From contig JARLIO010000085.1 of assembly GCA_031291675.1 (NCBI GenBank), forward strand, positions 1 to 64,000: 64,000 nt of DNA, written 5' to 3'. The notes beneath the pieces are model-generated. The model worked only from the letters and a program-made list of their open reading frames with translations. It made no database searches and was not told the DNA's origin. Made by a program: the position numbers and the translations under genes. The DNA comes from Azospirillaceae bacterium. Its GTDB lineage: Bacteria; Pseudomonadota; Alphaproteobacteria; Azospirillales; Azospirillaceae. This document shows, in pieces, positions 30,672 through 64,000 of the stretch; position 1 is the first letter of the stretch, and the number at the start of each line of letters is the position of its first letter.

Positions 30672-30736
30672 CCGCGAACGCGTTTCGGCCCCTGCCGGTT
30701 GACCTTCTTGACGTGCAACACCGCGGGACCGTACCG

Positions 30737-44291: not shown

Positions 44292-44352
44292 CCCCGCCCG
44301 CTGCGATCCCGGCGGCACGACGACCCGGTCGCGCCGCCGGGACCGCGTTCGA

Positions 44353-45459
44353 TCAGTCGGGCACGAAGAACTGGATTCCGAACCAGCGCCAACGGCCGTC
44401 ATCGGCCGGCAAGGTGCAGTTGACCCGGGCGCGACCGGGCGGAAAGGCTTCGGGGATGCGAACTTCGACGCGATCATCGAGCCACTCGACATTGGCGCGA
44501 CCCTGACCCGAGGCAAAACAGGCCAGGCGGGTTTTGTTCGCCAACCTGTCGGGAAGCGTGAACCCCAGATTGGGGGGATTGCTTTCGGTCAGCTCGGGGT
44601 CCGCCGGCGTCACATCACGCACCGGCAACGGCAGGGCATTGGCAGCAAGGCGAAACCGGTCGATGCCGCCAAAGCTCTCATTCATGACGAACCGCGGCAG
44701 GGCAAAACGATCCGAGGCGTGATAGGCGACACCGGAATTCTGCGCCAACGCCGCCGCATAGTTCCGGCCGGCGACCAGATCACGCATCCCCCGGCTGTAT
44801 TCACCGTAGGGATAGGCAAACAACGCCGGCGGCGTCCCGAGTTCCTGCGTCAAGCGGCGCTCCGCCCGTTCGATGGATGACTTCGCCTCATCCTCGTCCA
44901 GGCTGGGCAGCGATTCCGGGGACGCCGCCAGCGACCCGATCGTGGCGCCGGCTCCCGCCATTTCCCGGATTTCGCGCCATGTCAGCTGGGCCTCCCCGCC
45001 ACGATCGATCGCGTCGGTCGAGACAAACAGCGTGAAGGGCAAATGGGCGGCGCGCAGCCGGGGAAAGGCCTCCTGGTAGACCGAAGCGTAGGATTCGTCG
45101 ATCGTGATCGCAACCGTGCGCTCCGGCAACACCTTGCCGTCACGCAGCGCAGCCACGATGTCGTTGAGCGGCATTACCGTATAGTCGCCGCTGGTCAATT
45201 CGGCGATGTGAGCCTCGAACTGATCGAGGCGAATGCTGGCCGAGGGAAACGCATCCTCGCCAAAGCGATTATAGGCAAAGATCACGGCGCCATGATCATC
45301 GTTATCGTCGTCGTCCGCCGGGGATCCGAGATCCGCGGCGCCGGCCGGCAACGCGAACCCGGACATCAAGCCGATCAGGACGGCAAGGCACCGCACCATC
45401 GCCAGGCCACACCGGCGTCGCATCAGGCCAAGGCCGGAACCCCGACGGGTTAAGGGCAT
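44353..45459 (-). CDS. NodB-like polysaccharide deacetylase-family protein, apparently lacking zinc histidines
   Basis: A 368-residue exported protein with a signal region (about 21-42), an acidic stretch (DDDDNDD) and a NodB-type fold: TVAITIDESYASVYQEAFPRLRAAHLPFTLFV and ALFAYPYGEYS. Active members have TFDDG and an HxxxH zinc motif. Here motif 1 is TIDES (Asp121-Glu122) and motif 2, usually IGAHSxSH, reads IGSLAASP (173-181), so both zinc histidines are absent. Catalysis is doubtful; it may bind glycans. GAGG ten bases upstream supports the start. It precedes no obvious partner except the VanX-like gene upstream. Confidence 0.85.
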   Translation of the reverse strand: MPLTRRGSGLGLMRRRCGLAMVRCLAVLIGLMSGFALPAGAADLGSPADDDDNDDHGAVIFAYNRFGEDAFPSASIRLDQFEAHIAELTSGDYTVMPLNDIVAALRDGKVLPERTVAITIDESYASVYQEAFPRLRAAHLPFTLFVSTDAIDRGGEAQLTWREIREMAGAGATIGSLAASPESLPSLDEDEAKSSIERAERRLTQELGTPPALFAYPYGEYSRGMRDLVAGRNYAAALAQNSGVAYHASDRFALPRFVMNESFGGIDRFRLAANALPLPVRDVTPADPELTESNPPNLGFTLPDRLANKTRLACFASGQGRANVEWLDDRVEVRIPEAFPPGRARVNCTLPADDGRWRWFGIQFFVPD

Positions 45460-56428: not shown

Positions 56429-56459
56429 TCCGTGTAAACATCATATTGGGGTATTGCGC

Positions 56460-56933
56460 ATGGACACGACAGCACAGACTCAAAAGGGTACCGGCGGGCG
56501 CCCGAAGCTTGGAAAGCCCAATCCGATCGACGTTCATGTCGGATCACGCGTCCGACTGCGTCGCACGCTCCTCGGCATGAGCCAGGAAAAGCTGGGCGAG
56601 GCCATTGGCCTGACCTTCCAGCAGGTTCAGAAATACGAACGCGGTGCCAACCGTATCGGCGCCAGCCGCCTGTTCGACCTGTCCCGGGTTCTCGACGTGC
56701 CGGTATCGTTCTTCTTCGACGACATGTCGGCGGACGGCGTCAGCAACCAGCCGATCGACCGCCCGGCCCTGGCCGAGGATCGTGGCGCCGCCTACGAGCC
56801 GGATCCGATGGCCAAGCGCGAGACCCTCGAACTGGTCCGCGCCTACTACCGGATCACCGATCCGGCGGTCCGCAAGCGCTTGTTTGAATTGACCAAAGCG
56901 CTGGGAAATGCCAGCGAACCCGTCGCCGCATAA
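56460..56933 (+). CDS. Xre/Cro-CI-type helix-turn-helix regulator
   Basis: A 157-residue regulator: N-terminal Cro/CI-type HTH ([45 protein letters not shown]), then a [11 protein letters not shown] motif common to this alphaproteobacterial group and a short helical C-terminus ([20 protein letters not shown]). It sits between lnt and metK, a conserved position. The upstream perfect inverted repeat is a likely autoregulatory site. It may also control metK or cell-cycle genes, which is not shown here. Confidence 0.93.
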
Positions 56934-58327: not shown

Positions 58328-59111
58328 CCCCCCGGGTTCGGGGGCGGACTGCGCTCCGGATCCGAACCCGGAAACACCGGAAACCAGGACGCTGCCCGCG
58401 AGGGCAGCGTTTCCGTTCCCGGGCCTGTCTTCTGTCGACACCAAGCTTTATGGCCGCCGTCGGGGCCGGCCGATCCGGGTCCACAAGACGGCTCTTCTTG
58501 AGAACCTGTTGCCACAACTGCGCTTCGACCTGCCCGCGGCCGGGATGCTGGATCCGGTCACGCTGTTCCCGAGGCCCGTCGACGATGTCTGGCTTGAGGT
58601 CGGCTTCGGCAGCGGCGAACATCTCGCCGAGCAGGCCGCACAGCATCCGACGATCGGCATGATCGGCTGCGAGCCCTTCCTCAATGGTGTCGCCAGTCTG
58701 CTGCAGCACATCGACGAGCGCGCGCTGACCACGATCCGGGTCTATCCCGACGATGCCCGGCCGGTTCTCGATGCCCTGCCCGACCGGTCGATCGGCCGCT
58801 GTTTCGTGCTGTTCGCCGATCCCTGGCCCAAGAAGCGTCACCACGATCGCCGTTTCATCGGCCCGGCCAACCTGGCCCGTCTGGCGCGCGTCTTGAAACC
58901 GGGTGCCGAATTGCGCCTGGCCAGCGATGACCGCAGCCTGCTCGCCTGGATGTTTGATCATAGCTGGCGCCACCCCGATTTCGAGTGGCTGGCCCGCGGT
59001 GCCAGCGACTGGCGCCAACGCCCGACCGACTGGCCGCCGTCGCGCTACGAACAAAAGGCGATCGAAGCCGGCCGCACACCGGTTTTCCTGCGGTTCCGCC
59101 GCCGGTCGTAA
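58314..59111 (+). CDS. trmB: tRNA (guanine-N7-)-methyltransferase TrmB
   Basis: Methylates G46 of tRNA using SAM. 265 residues with the TrmB features: [23 protein letters not shown] motif [13 protein letters not shown], the [13 protein letters not shown] segment, and the signature [16 protein letters not shown]. The ATG at 58314 overlaps metK by 14 bases in another frame; a Pro/Asp-rich leader of about 45 residues precedes the domain. Coupling to metK, the enzyme supplying its methyl donor, is common in alphaproteobacteria. Confidence 0.94.
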
Positions 59112-59248
59112 GCCCGATCCGGCGCCAGGCCGTGACAACCGGGCACAGCCCCGCGGATCGCGAACATTCTGTCATCAAATTGCGATCTGACGCTGTCGCT
59201 TTCGTCACGAAGCCGACATACAAAATGTCGACGCCCCCCTGAGAACCC

Positions 59249-59276
59249 TTGCGATCACGGCCGGAATGGTTATATT
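59249..59276 (+). promoter_or_regulatory. Promoter of the rimP-nusA-ylxR-infB operon
   Basis: TTGCGA (59249-59254) and TATATT (59271-59276) have 16-base spacing, close to consensus for the main sigma factor. Transcription would start near 59283, about 100 bases before rimP, inside a structured leader. Confidence 0.55.
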
Positions 59277-59280
59277 TCCC

Positions 59281-59323
59281 CGTGATCCCAACGGATCCGG
59301 TGGTCCCGCCGCATGGGTTCACG
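59281..59323 (+). other. Leader hairpin upstream of the rimP terminator
   Basis: CGTGATCCCA (59281-59290) pairs with TGGGTTCACG (59314-59323), nine of ten positions, directly upstream of the intrinsic terminator. The first arm begins where the operon's transcript is expected to start. It could influence whether the downstream terminator forms. Confidence 0.5.
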
Positions 59324-59338
59324 GGAATCTTTAATCGG

Positions 59339-59362
59339 GTGGGCCCCTGGCCCACTTTTTTT
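59339..59362 (+). terminator. Intrinsic terminator in the rimP leader (attenuator candidate)
   Basis: GTGGGCC-CCT-GGCCCAC (59339-59355) followed by seven T (59356-59362) is a textbook terminator. It ends only 19 bases before the rimP start and after the promoter at 59249, so transcription of rimP, nusA, ylxR and infB must pass it. That position fits attenuation rather than a terminator for trmB 230 bases upstream. Confidence 0.85.
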
Positions 59363-59381
59363 ATTCTTGCGCTGTGGTGGA

Positions 59382-59867
59382 ATGGAAGCAACCAGCCGGA
59401 TAGAGCGCCTGATCACGCCGTCGATCGAAGCCATGGGGTATGAGATCGTGCGCGTCAGCTTGTCTGCCGGGCAACATGCCATCGTCCAGATCATGGCGGA
59501 ACGCCATGATGGTGTCACGATGACCGTTGAGGATTGTGCCGACATCAGCCGCGCGGTCTCCGCCTTGCTGGACGTCGAGGATCCGCTGCCGACTGCCTAC
59601 ACGCTGGAGGTCAGTTCGCCCGGAATTGACCGCCCGCTGACCCGCCCCAAGGATTTCGAGCGTTTCGCCGGTTTCGAGGCGCGGATCGAAACCCGGGTCG
59701 CGCTCGACGGCCGCAAGCGTTTTCGCGGGCGGCTCGGCGGGCTCGACGCCGGCAAAATTCGACTCGACACCGACACGGGTCTCGTTTTGGTCCCGGTTGA
59801 GACGGTGCAACGGGCCAAGCTGGTGCTGACCGACGAGTTGATCGCGGCCACCGCAAGCCAGCATTAG
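59382..59867 (+). CDS. rimP: Ribosome maturation factor RimP
   Basis: Small protein for 30S subunit maturation. 161 residues: N-terminal alpha/beta domain with GYEIVRVSLSAGQHAIVQIMAER, the family VEDCADISRAVSALLDVEDPL and YTLEVSSPGIDRPLTRPKDFERFAG, and a C-terminal SH3-like domain. The ATG at 59382 follows TGGTGGA. It is the first gene of the rimP-nusA-ylxR-infB operon, behind the leader terminator at 59339. Confidence 0.95.
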   Translation: MEATSRIERLITPSIEAMGYEIVRVSLSAGQHAIVQIMAERHDGVTMTVEDCADISRAVSALLDVEDPLPTAYTLEVSSPGIDRPLTRPKDFERFAGFEARIETRVALDGRKRFRGRLGGLDAGKIRLDTDTGLVLVPVETVQRAKLVLTDELIAATASQH

Positions 59868-59935: not shown

Positions 59936-61438
59936 ATGGAACTACTACAAGTGGCTGACGCGGTCGCCCGCGAAAAGAACATCGACCGGGACGAAGTCCT
60001 GGATGCGATGGAGCAGGCGATTCAAAAAGCGGGTCGCTCGAAATATGGTCACGAGCATGACATTCGGGCGCGGATCGATCGCAAATCCGGCGAAATCCAC
60101 CTGCTGCGCTATCGCGAAGTCACCGAGACCATCGAGAACGAAGCGACCCAGATCAGTGTCGACACGGCACAGCGCCTGAAAAAGGACGCCAAGCCGGGCG
60201 ATTTCCTGACCGACGAACTGCCGCCGATCGATTTCGGGCGTATCGCCGCCCAGACCGCCAAGCAGGTTATCGTCCAGAAGGTCCGTGAAGCCGAACGTCA
60301 ACGCCAGTTCCGGGAATACAAGGACCGCATCAGCGAGATCGTGAACGGTCTGGTCAAGCGGGTTGAATATGGCAATGTCACGGTCGATCTCGGCCGCGCC
60401 GAAGCGATCCTGCGCCGCGATGAGTTGCTGCCGCGGGAGCATTTCAAGAATGGCGACCGGGTTCGCGCCCTGATTTATGATGTCCGTTCCGAAGTGCGCG
60501 GGCCGCAGATTTTCCTGTCGCGGACCCATCCGCAATTCATGGCCAAGCTGTTCGCACAGGAAGTGCCCGAGATCTACGATGGCGTCATCGACATCAAGTC
60601 GGTCGCCCGCGACCCCGGCAGCCGGGCCAAGATTGCGGTTCAGTCCTCCGACAGCTCGATCGATCCCGTCGGCGCCTGCGTTGGTATGCGCGGCAGCCGG
60701 GTTCAGGCGGTCGTCGGCGAATTGCAGGGCGAAAAGATCGATATCATTCCCTGGTCGTCGGATCCGGCGACCTTCGTCGTCAACGCGCTCGCCCCCGCCG
60801 AAGTCGCCAAGGTCGTGCTCGACGAGGAAAGCAAGCGCATCGAGGTCGTGGTTCCGGACGATCAGCTCAGTCTGGCCATCGGCCGGCGTGGGCAGAATGT
60901 CCGGCTGGCGTCGATGCTGACGGGCTGGGATATCGACATCCTGACGGAGAACGAAGAATCCGAACGGCGTTCGGAAGAGTTCCGGACCCGGTCGGATCTG
61001 TTCACCGAGGCGCTTGATGTCGACGACGTCATCGCCCATCTGCTCGTCGCCGAAGGCTTTACCTCGGTTGAGGAAATCGCGTTTGTCGAAACCGACGAGT
61101 TGGCGGAGATCGAAGGCTTCGATGCCGATGTCGCCGACGAGTTGAAGGCCCGGGCCCGCGTGTTTCTGGAGCAACAGGACGAGATCATGACGGCGAAAAG
61201 CCATGCTCTCGGCGTTACCGAAGAGGTTGCCCGGACGACCGGTGTCTCGCCGACATTGTTGGTGAAATTGGGCGAGAATGGCGTAAAAACACTGGATGAT
61301 CTGGCAGATCTGTCGGGTGACGAACTCCGTGATATCATCGGCAAGGACGCCTTGACGCTGGAAGGCGCCAACGAAGTCATCATGGCGGCACGTGCCCATT
61401 GGTTCCAGGAGGGGTCGACCGAGGCGGCGAAGGACTGA
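59936..61438 (+). CDS. nusA: Transcription termination/antitermination factor NusA
   Basis: RNA polymerase-binding factor for pausing, termination and antitermination. 500 residues: N-terminal polymerase-binding domain (1-125), S1 domain (about 130-200), two KH domains (GACVGMRGSRVQAVVGELQGEKIDIIPW and LAIGRRGQNVRLASMLTGWDIDI), then acidic C-terminal repeats with helix-hairpin-helix segments (about 360-490). Length matches alphaproteobacterial NusA. In E. coli NusA represses its own operon; the leader terminator upstream of rimP may serve that here. Confidence 0.97.
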   Translation: MELLQVADAVAREKNIDRDEVLDAMEQAIQKAGRSKYGHEHDIRARIDRKSGEIHLLRYREVTETIENEATQISVDTAQRLKKDAKPGDFLTDELPPIDFGRIAAQTAKQVIVQKVREAERQRQFREYKDRISEIVNGLVKRVEYGNVTVDLGRAEAILRRDELLPREHFKNGDRVRALIYDVRSEVRGPQIFLSRTHPQFMAKLFAQEVPEIYDGVIDIKSVARDPGSRAKIAVQSSDSSIDPVGACVGMRGSRVQAVVGELQGEKIDIIPWSSDPATFVVNALAPAEVAKVVLDEESKRIEVVVPDDQLSLAIGRRGQNVRLASMLTGWDIDILTENEESERRSEEFRTRSDLFTEALDVDDVIAHLLVAEGFTSVEEIAFVETDELAEIEGFDADVADELKARARVFLEQQDEIMTAKSHALGVTEEVARTTGVSPTLLVKLGENGVKTLDDLADLSGDELRDIIGKDALTLEGANEVIMAARAHWFQEGSTEAAKD

Positions 61439-61479
61439 GCCACTCCGGGGTTGACCTTCATCATGGCAGGAAACAAGGC

Positions 61480-62196
61480 TTGACGGCATTGGTAGCGAAT
61501 CAGGAGCTTCCGAGCAGCGAATCGGAGCAGGATGCAACGCACCCGGGCGACGGCGACTCCGACTTTGTCGGGGATCGGCGCAGCCCGTTGCGTCGTTGCA
61601 TCGTGACCGGTGTTGTGCAGAACCGCGAAGCCTTGATCCGTTTTGTCGTCGGGCCCGATAACACGATCGTTCCCGATGTCGAAGGGTCACTCCCCGGGCG
61701 CGGCTATTGGGTCGTCGCTGACCGCGCCGCCCTCGAAAAGGCGATCGCGAAAGGCAGCTTTTCCCGCGCCGCCCGTCGCAGCGTCCAGGTCCCTCCGGAT
61801 CTCGTCGATCGGGTCGAAGCCCTGCTGGAACGCCATTGCCTCGACCTGATCGGTCTGGCGCGACGCGCCGGCCAGGCCGTCGCCGGCTTCGAAAAGGTCC
61901 GCTCCGCGTTGCAGCGGGGACAGGTCGGTGTGCTGCTCGCAGCCGCCGACGGCGCCGCCGATGGCCGCGGCAAACTTCAGGCCCTCGCCGGCACGTTACC
62001 CGTCGTCGTGGCATTCGATGCCATCCGCCTCGGGGCAACGCTGGGCCGCGAGCAGGCCGTACACGCCGCCCTCGCCCCCGGGGCGCTGGCGGCGCGTTTT
62101 CTCGCCGAATCCCGACGTTTCGCCGGGATTAGGCAATATCGGGATTGCCAGGTCGGCGTTGTGCCGACCGGTTTGCCCACCCAACGGACGAGCTAG
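61480..62196 (+). CDS. YlxR-domain RNA-binding protein fused to an L7Ae-like domain
   Basis: A 238-residue protein with a YlxR (DUF448) domain (about 30-105, [40 protein letters not shown]) joined to an L7Ae-like RNA-binding domain (about 115-210, [20 protein letters not shown]). Such fusions are typical in alphaproteobacteria between nusA and infB. The TTG at 61480 is one choice of start; the ORF is open upstream to 61399 inside nusA. Function is thought to be RNA or ribosome binding. Confidence 0.9.
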
Positions 62197-62207
62197 TCGA
62201 ACGACAC

Positions 62208-64000
62208 ATGACGGACAGCAACGACCAAGACCGCAGCAAGAAGCTCAGCCTTTCACCGGGCAAGGGCAAAATAGAGTTGAAGAAGACGGTCGAAACCGGG
62301 TCGGTTCGGCAAAGCTTTTCTCATGGGCGCTCCAAGACCGTCGAGGTCGAGGTCAAGAAGAAACGCGCCGTGGACAAAGGCGCCGCGCCCGGGATCGCCG
62401 ATGGCGGTGCCGCGGCGCGCCGCGCCGCCGAGGGCCTGCCGACCAAGGCGACCCCGGGTCGCGGTGGCAGCAAAGGCGGGACAACGGCCCGTCAGCTCAC
62501 CCCGCAAGAACGCGAGCTGCGCGAGCGCGTTCTGCGCAATGCCAAGATCGAAGAGAAGCGGCGGCAGATCGAGGATGAGCAGGTCGTCGAGGCGGCAATC
62601 GAGCAGCCCGCCACCGAACAGCCGGTGATCGAACAGCCCGTCGCAATCGATGTTCCGCTCGACGATGACACGTTGCGGCGCCAGGAACTCGAAGAGCTGC
62701 GGCAAATCCAGGAGGTCGAGCGCGCCCAAGCCGAGGAGCTTGAGCGCAAGCGGCTTGAGGAAGAGACCCGGCGCAAGGAAGAGGAAGCCAAGCGCAAGGC
62801 CGAAGAAGACCGCAAGAAGCCACCGGCACGGCCCACCGACGGCGCCCGGGCGCCGGCGCGCGGTACCGATGGCGCAGCGGCTCCGGTGGCACGGCCGGCC
62901 ACGTCGGTCGCAGCGCCCGCGGCTCGTGTCGCGGCCGGCGCCACCGACGGTGACGATGACGCGCCCCGCGCCCGCAAGGCGACGGCTGGCATCGGCCCCA
63001 ACGCGGCCAAAGCCCCCGCGGTCAAGCCCGCCGCGCCGCCCCGCGTCAAGGGCTCCGAGAAACGCCGCGGCAGCGGCAAGCTGACCGTCAGTCAGGCGCT
63101 CAGCGGGGATGATGCGGAAAAGACCCGCAGCCTCGCCGCGCTGCGTCGCGCCCGGGAACGGGAACGCCTGCGCCTGGCCAGCCGCCAGGAGGTCCAGAAG
63201 GTTACCCGTGACGTCATCGTCCCCGAAGTCATCACGGTTCAGGAATTGGCCAACCGCATGGCCGAACGCGGCGCCGACGTCATCAAGGCGCTGATGCGTA
63301 TGGGCGTCATGGCGACGATCAACCAGACCATCGACGCCGACACGGCCGAGCTGGTGATTGCCGAGTTTGGTCACCGTGCCCGCCGCGTGTCCGAATCGGA
63401 TGTCGAGCTGGGCATCCGCGGTGAGGTCGACGGCGACGAAGTGATGCAGTCCCGGCCCCCGGTGGTCACCGTCATGGGCCATGTCGACCATGGCAAGACC
63501 TCGTTGCTCGACGCCCTGCGATCGACCGACGTCGCCAGCCATGAAGCCGGCGGCATCACCCAGCATATCGGTGCCTATCAGGTCGTGTTGCACGGCGACA
63601 GCCGGATCACCTTCATTGACACCCCCGGTCACGCGGCCTTCACCGAAATGCGGGCCCGCGGCGCCAATGTCACCGACGTCGTGGTCCTGGTCGTCGCCGC
63701 CGATGACGGCATCATGCCGCAGACGATCGAGGCGATCCGTCATGCCAAGGCGGCCAAGGTGCCGATCATCGTCGCCATCAACAAGTGCGACCTGCCCGAC
63801 GCCAACCCGGCGCGTGTCCGCCAGGAACTGTTGCAGCACGATCTCGTCGTCGAGGAAATGGGTGGCGACATCCTGGCCGTCGATGTCTCGGCCAAGACCC
63901 GGCTCGGCCTGGATCGGCTGGAAGAGGCGATCCTGCTGCAGGCGGAAATCCTCGAACTGCGCGCCAATCCCGATCGCATCGCCGAGGGCGTGGTCATCGA
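62208..64000 (+). CDS. infB: Translation initiation factor IF-2 (partial, runs off the window)
   Basis: GTPase that brings fMet-tRNA to the 30S subunit. The first 597 codons are visible. From the ATG at 62208: a basic N-terminus ([21 protein letters not shown]), a long charged Ala/Glu/Arg-rich linker (about 60-300), the N2 region ([29 protein letters not shown]), then the GTPase with G1 [14 protein letters not shown]2 [11 protein letters not shown]3 DTPGHAAF and G4 NKCD. The end is missing at base 64000. The start is 11 bases after the ylxR stop. Confidence 0.96.

Follow-up and report, generated by a model that had tools for sequence, protein, structure and literature searches.

The rimP-nusA-ylxR-infB operon of an Azospirillaceae bacterium is preceded by a promoter-like site and a terminator-like hairpin, which raises the question of whether this leader is an attenuator and what sets its termination. 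The window, the whole 64,000-nucleotide stretch analysed here, carries metK, trmB, rimP, nusA, ylxR, and infB in this order, all on the + strand. trmB ends at 59111 and the rimP ATG is at 59382; both the promoter-like site and the terminator lie between them. NCBIfam gene identities place the element in the 5′ region of the operon: rimP (59382-59867, 161 aa; NCBIfam RimP NF000932.0, E 3.2e-63), the first gene under its putative control; nusA (59936-61438, 500 aa; TIGR01953, E 1.1e-132), encoding the candidate effector; the ylxR/L7Ae-like RNA-binding protein gene (61399-62196, start codon uncertain; NF006622.0, E 4.4e-71 for 61429-62193); and infB (IF-2, 62205-63998; TIGR00487, E 6.7e-112), which is cut by the window end. 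Just 5′ of metK, a 159-aa ORF (56454-56933, +) had by eye the look of an XRE-type helix-turn-helix regulator.

The initial annotation had described an intrinsic terminator 19 bases before rimP, and this terminator was present on the + strand at 59337-59362. Its stem is formed by GGGTGGGCC (59337-59345) and GGCCCACTT (59349-59357) around the loop CCT (59346-59348), with the T-run at 59356-59362, giving the rimP-leader signature GTGGGC...GCCCAC with a T7 tract. Folding of the stretch 59330-59368 resulted in an MFE of −14.9 kcal/mol (z −2.8). The distance from the T-run end (59362) to the rimP ATG (59382) is 19 nt. The motif GTGGGCN{2,7}GCCCACNTTTT was found only once in the 5.87 Mb genome (99 contigs), at the rimP leader, and a backwards control of the motif gave 0 matches in the same genome. 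A purine-rich AGGTGGA-like stretch (59374-59384) abuts the rimP ATG with almost no spacer, an unusual Shine-Dalgarno arrangement, and this near-zero spacer was conserved in many family members.

The promoter that had been called good was equally well borne out. The sigma70-like site TTGCGA-16-TATATT (59249-59276, +; 9/12 matches) consists of a −35-like TTGCGA (59249-59254), a 16 nt spacer, and a −10-like TATATT (59271-59276). Its position was conserved in relatives, and it recurred at a fixed distance in Azospirillaceae. From the −10 position, we infer a transcription start near 59282-59285. Among 56 alphaproteobacterial leaders, 44 had a promoter of the TTG...−10 type 20-140 nt 5′ of the terminator, against a chance count of 4.9 on average and 12 at most in mononucleotide shuffles. 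The −10 to terminator distance had a median of 47 nt class-wide and was about 61 nt in Azospirillaceae. With the start codon just 19 nt beyond the T-run, there is no room in the window for a promoter after the terminator. The promoter itself is located 3′ of trmB and 5′ of the terminator, so that the terminator falls inside the rimP transcript and is not merely the end of trmB. The promoter-leader-terminator-rimP order was conserved across Alphaproteobacteria, which supports a leader of the attenuator type. The presence of a promoter and a strong intrinsic terminator directly upstream of rimP was confirmed.

The leader RNA between the likely start, placed from the −10 site, and the terminator (59282-59336, +) was hairpin-prone in folding. 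The long hairpin annotated there (59281-59323) held up only in part. Given transcription of the whole stretch, it folds as 59279-59325 with −25.2 kcal/mol and z −2.4. Its outermost pairs coincide with the likely start site (59282-59285) or lie 5′ of it, and in an RNA begun at 59282 the hairpin was no better than shuffles (z −0.7). When leaders were compared in relatives for conserved structure, the terminator was conserved and the long hairpin was not. Of the features observed, the long hairpin is the least secure, and it looks dispensable by sequence, since the window leader is without the second-hairpin form of its relatives (see below). A search for known Rfam families or riboswitches gave no gathering-score match in 59100-59500, and the matches with E ≤ 10 were far below the cut-offs. 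Elsewhere in the window, a SAM-II riboswitch (SAM_alpha, RF00521; 30604-30682, +, 57.3 bits) stands directly before a 415-aa ORF at 30713, presumably a PLP-dependent homocysteine-forming enzyme of the metZ type. A SAM-II riboswitch before such a gene is ordinary in Alphaproteobacteria.

The pattern GTGGGCN{2,6}GCCCRCN{0,2}TTTT was searched in a class sample of 142 alphaproteobacterial genomes and found at 62 distinct places. At rimP, that is, within 420 nt upstream on the same strand, were 51 of the 62, in 51 genomes; here, as in all class and family counts, related genomes are taken individually and kinship is uncorrected. Of 87 class leaders scanned independently of the motif, 66 had a terminator no more than 300 nt from rimP, and 51 of these 66 were of the GGGC...GCCC form. 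The other 21 leaders showed no terminator in the 300 nt before rimP, so the element is not obligatory. GTGGG was present in the 5′ half of 52/66 terminators, and in 23/66 the 5′ GUGGG stood opposite CCCGC (U-G wobble) rather than CCCAC. Because GUGGG persists whether its U faces A or G, the 5′ arm looks constrained as sequence and not just as a fold. GTGGG...CCCA/CCCG terminators before rimP were also seen in single MAGs labelled gammaproteobacteria, deltaproteobacteria, Oligoflexia, and Hydrogenedentota. In a broader phylum sample, 42 of the 200 genomes contained the exact motif, wherever in the genome it lay. In many relatives within the family, an A between the terminator stem and the main T-run (CACTTATTTTTTT) interrupted the proximal U-tract, which may make these leaders more factor-dependent.

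We interpret the element, with a probability of about 0.72, as a rimP-leader attenuator whose termination is set by a protein, NusA being the foremost candidate. RNA polymerase would start at the promoter (59249-59276), make a leader of ~80 nt, and at the terminator (59337-59362) either stop or read through into rimP-nusA-ylxR-infB. How often it stops most likely depends on a protein that acts on the polymerase and on the terminator RNA as it emerges. The leading candidate is NusA, the second gene's product; at high levels it would stimulate termination and reduce expression of the operon. The case for NusA draws on published E. coli, B. subtilis, and S. agalactiae work. Naville & Gautheret (2010) defined rimP-leaders by a GGGc...gCCC terminator before rimP-nusA-infB; they concluded on a protein effector for these leaders generally, with NusA proposed as the best candidate (PMC2965389). 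In B. subtilis, NusA is reported to stimulate termination in its own leader (PMC12288461, PMC6200986). In S. agalactiae, a single start site yields the long mRNA as well as a short, terminated RNA, and NusA feedback was suggested (PMC4448216). The mechanism put forward in the initial annotation is most likely correct. NusA feedback at rimP leaders is already a published idea and is not new.

An unregulated partial terminator would look identical in sequence, from which regulation alone cannot be shown. Its role would be only to hold read-through from a strong promoter at a constant low level, or to block read-in from metK and trmB, which share the direction of rimP, and no feedback would be involved. 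We consider this explanation unlikely, as the conserved promoter puts the terminator inside the rimP transcript and the stem sequence, beyond its fold, was conserved and largely rimP-specific; NusA feedback has moreover been reported at the equivalent B. subtilis leader.

A second hairpin bears on the identity of the effector. Order-level and family-level genome searches gave the same 82 genomes, all of one family (Azospirillaceae). Most of their leaders run, from promoter to terminator, as CCCAUA, hairpin P1 (36-39 nt), CUUUG, and CGGGUGGGCC. The promoter-terminator stretch folded better than shuffles, with a mean z of −2.7 over 31 leaders, a set that includes the window and a few others without the standard P1 form. 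With MAFFT/RNAalifold on whole leaders the terminator was misaligned or the consensus was empty; base-anchored P1 halves were used instead. In the alignment joined from the two halves, which leans on the assumed hairpin base, paired cells were 79% (69% in shuffles), double-changed cells 35 (15.9 in shuffles), and the covariation score 0.37 (0.22 in shuffles, and ≤0.10 when slid by 1-3 columns). Compensatory changes were present in most Azospirillaceae leaders. The P1 model (R1) showed strong matches at rimP in the family and no match on the window's own leader, and class-wide, leaders exceeded control sequence in structure by only a small margin (z −0.66 vs −0.12). Judged by these comparisons, P1 is therefore a lineage feature, of which the window genome has a diverged form. 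As a multi-gene signal P1 was rejected: matches away from rimP were scattered and weak (~31 bits at most), and no regulon was evident. A weak GC-rich match in the window (44292-44353, −; 15.4 bits, E 0.04) is probably due to chance.

Tentatively, and with considerable doubt, the CCCAUA box, P1, and the CUUUG linker might form a module at which NusA, or a different protein of the operon, specifically docks and which makes the feedback tunable; the lineage of the window would have lost it and kept the core. The papers found do not describe this extra module. Another effector could also bind the leader RNA in place of NusA, namely RimP or the YlxR/L7Ae-like protein. Both are RNA-associated, RimP was named as conceivable by Naville & Gautheret (PMC2965389), and the conserved Azospirillaceae hairpin could serve as a binding site. 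That hairpin, however, was undetectable in the window and weak class-wide, whereas the terminator was conserved, and the reported feedback is by NusA, which makes this alternative improbable.

An RNA switch, in which the early leader pairs with the terminator 5′ arm as an antiterminator under ligand or ribosome control, is very improbable: leaders cut before the 3′ arm often paired GGGU with upstream ACCC/AUCC in MFE folds and the CCCAUA box is conserved in most Azospirillaceae, but arm-leader pairing was not above dinucleotide shuffles (family p 0.25, 31 leaders; class p 0.13, 57 leaders), the leader region had no Rfam match, and Naville & Gautheret reported no antiterminator outside some Gammaproteobacteria (PMC2965389). 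A specific candidate from the MFE folds, CCCAU(ACG) with (C)GGGUGGG, was rejected, since its partner probabilities did not exceed those of shuffled leaders. The negative antiterminator result speaks against an RNA switch, and a stem that is conserved in sequence yet faces no rival structure suggests that the effector is a protein, as in the NusA reading.

Compared with the rimP-leaders of Naville & Gautheret (PMC2965389), the window element has the same site before rimP-nusA-infB, the same G-rich 5′ arm, C-rich 3′ arm (GGGc...gCCC), and T-run, and likewise no antiterminator was found. Its terminator-gene gap of 19 nt lies within their 4-130 nt. The difference is that most Azospirillaceae add a second hairpin and a CCCAUA box, unreported in PMC2965389, while the window has no recognisable hairpin of this kind. 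The B. subtilis ylxS(rimP)-nusA leader (Mondal et al. 2016, as cited in PMC12288461 and PMC6200986) shares the terminator before rimP and nusA; NusA dependence is reported there, whereas in the window we infer it. The S. agalactiae leader (PMC4448216) is similar in its short and long RNAs from one start and its proposed NusA feedback, with a stop 31 nt after the start, compared with a likely 80 nt or so in the window. Rfam RF01770 'rimP' shares name and position, but its covariance model, which describes a narrower form, matched nothing in the window genome and, of 14 control genomes, only E. coli. The window element is a member of the published rimP-leader kind, an ordinary and very widely conserved bacterial control element.

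The present analysis extends this published but little-studied attenuator family across Alphaproteobacteria and puts numbers on its specificity. What it adds is a class-wide specificity measure, a one-sided pattern of conservation that favours the 5′ arm, a negative test for an antiterminator, and a hairpin particular to the family. We found no test of NusA feedback in Alphaproteobacteria. The family hairpin, present in most relatives and unrecognisable in the window, offers a natural comparison. The evidence argues for protein recognition of the terminator 5′ arm over an RNA switch, and should NusA prove to be the effector, a general termination factor would have its level set by the very process it controls.
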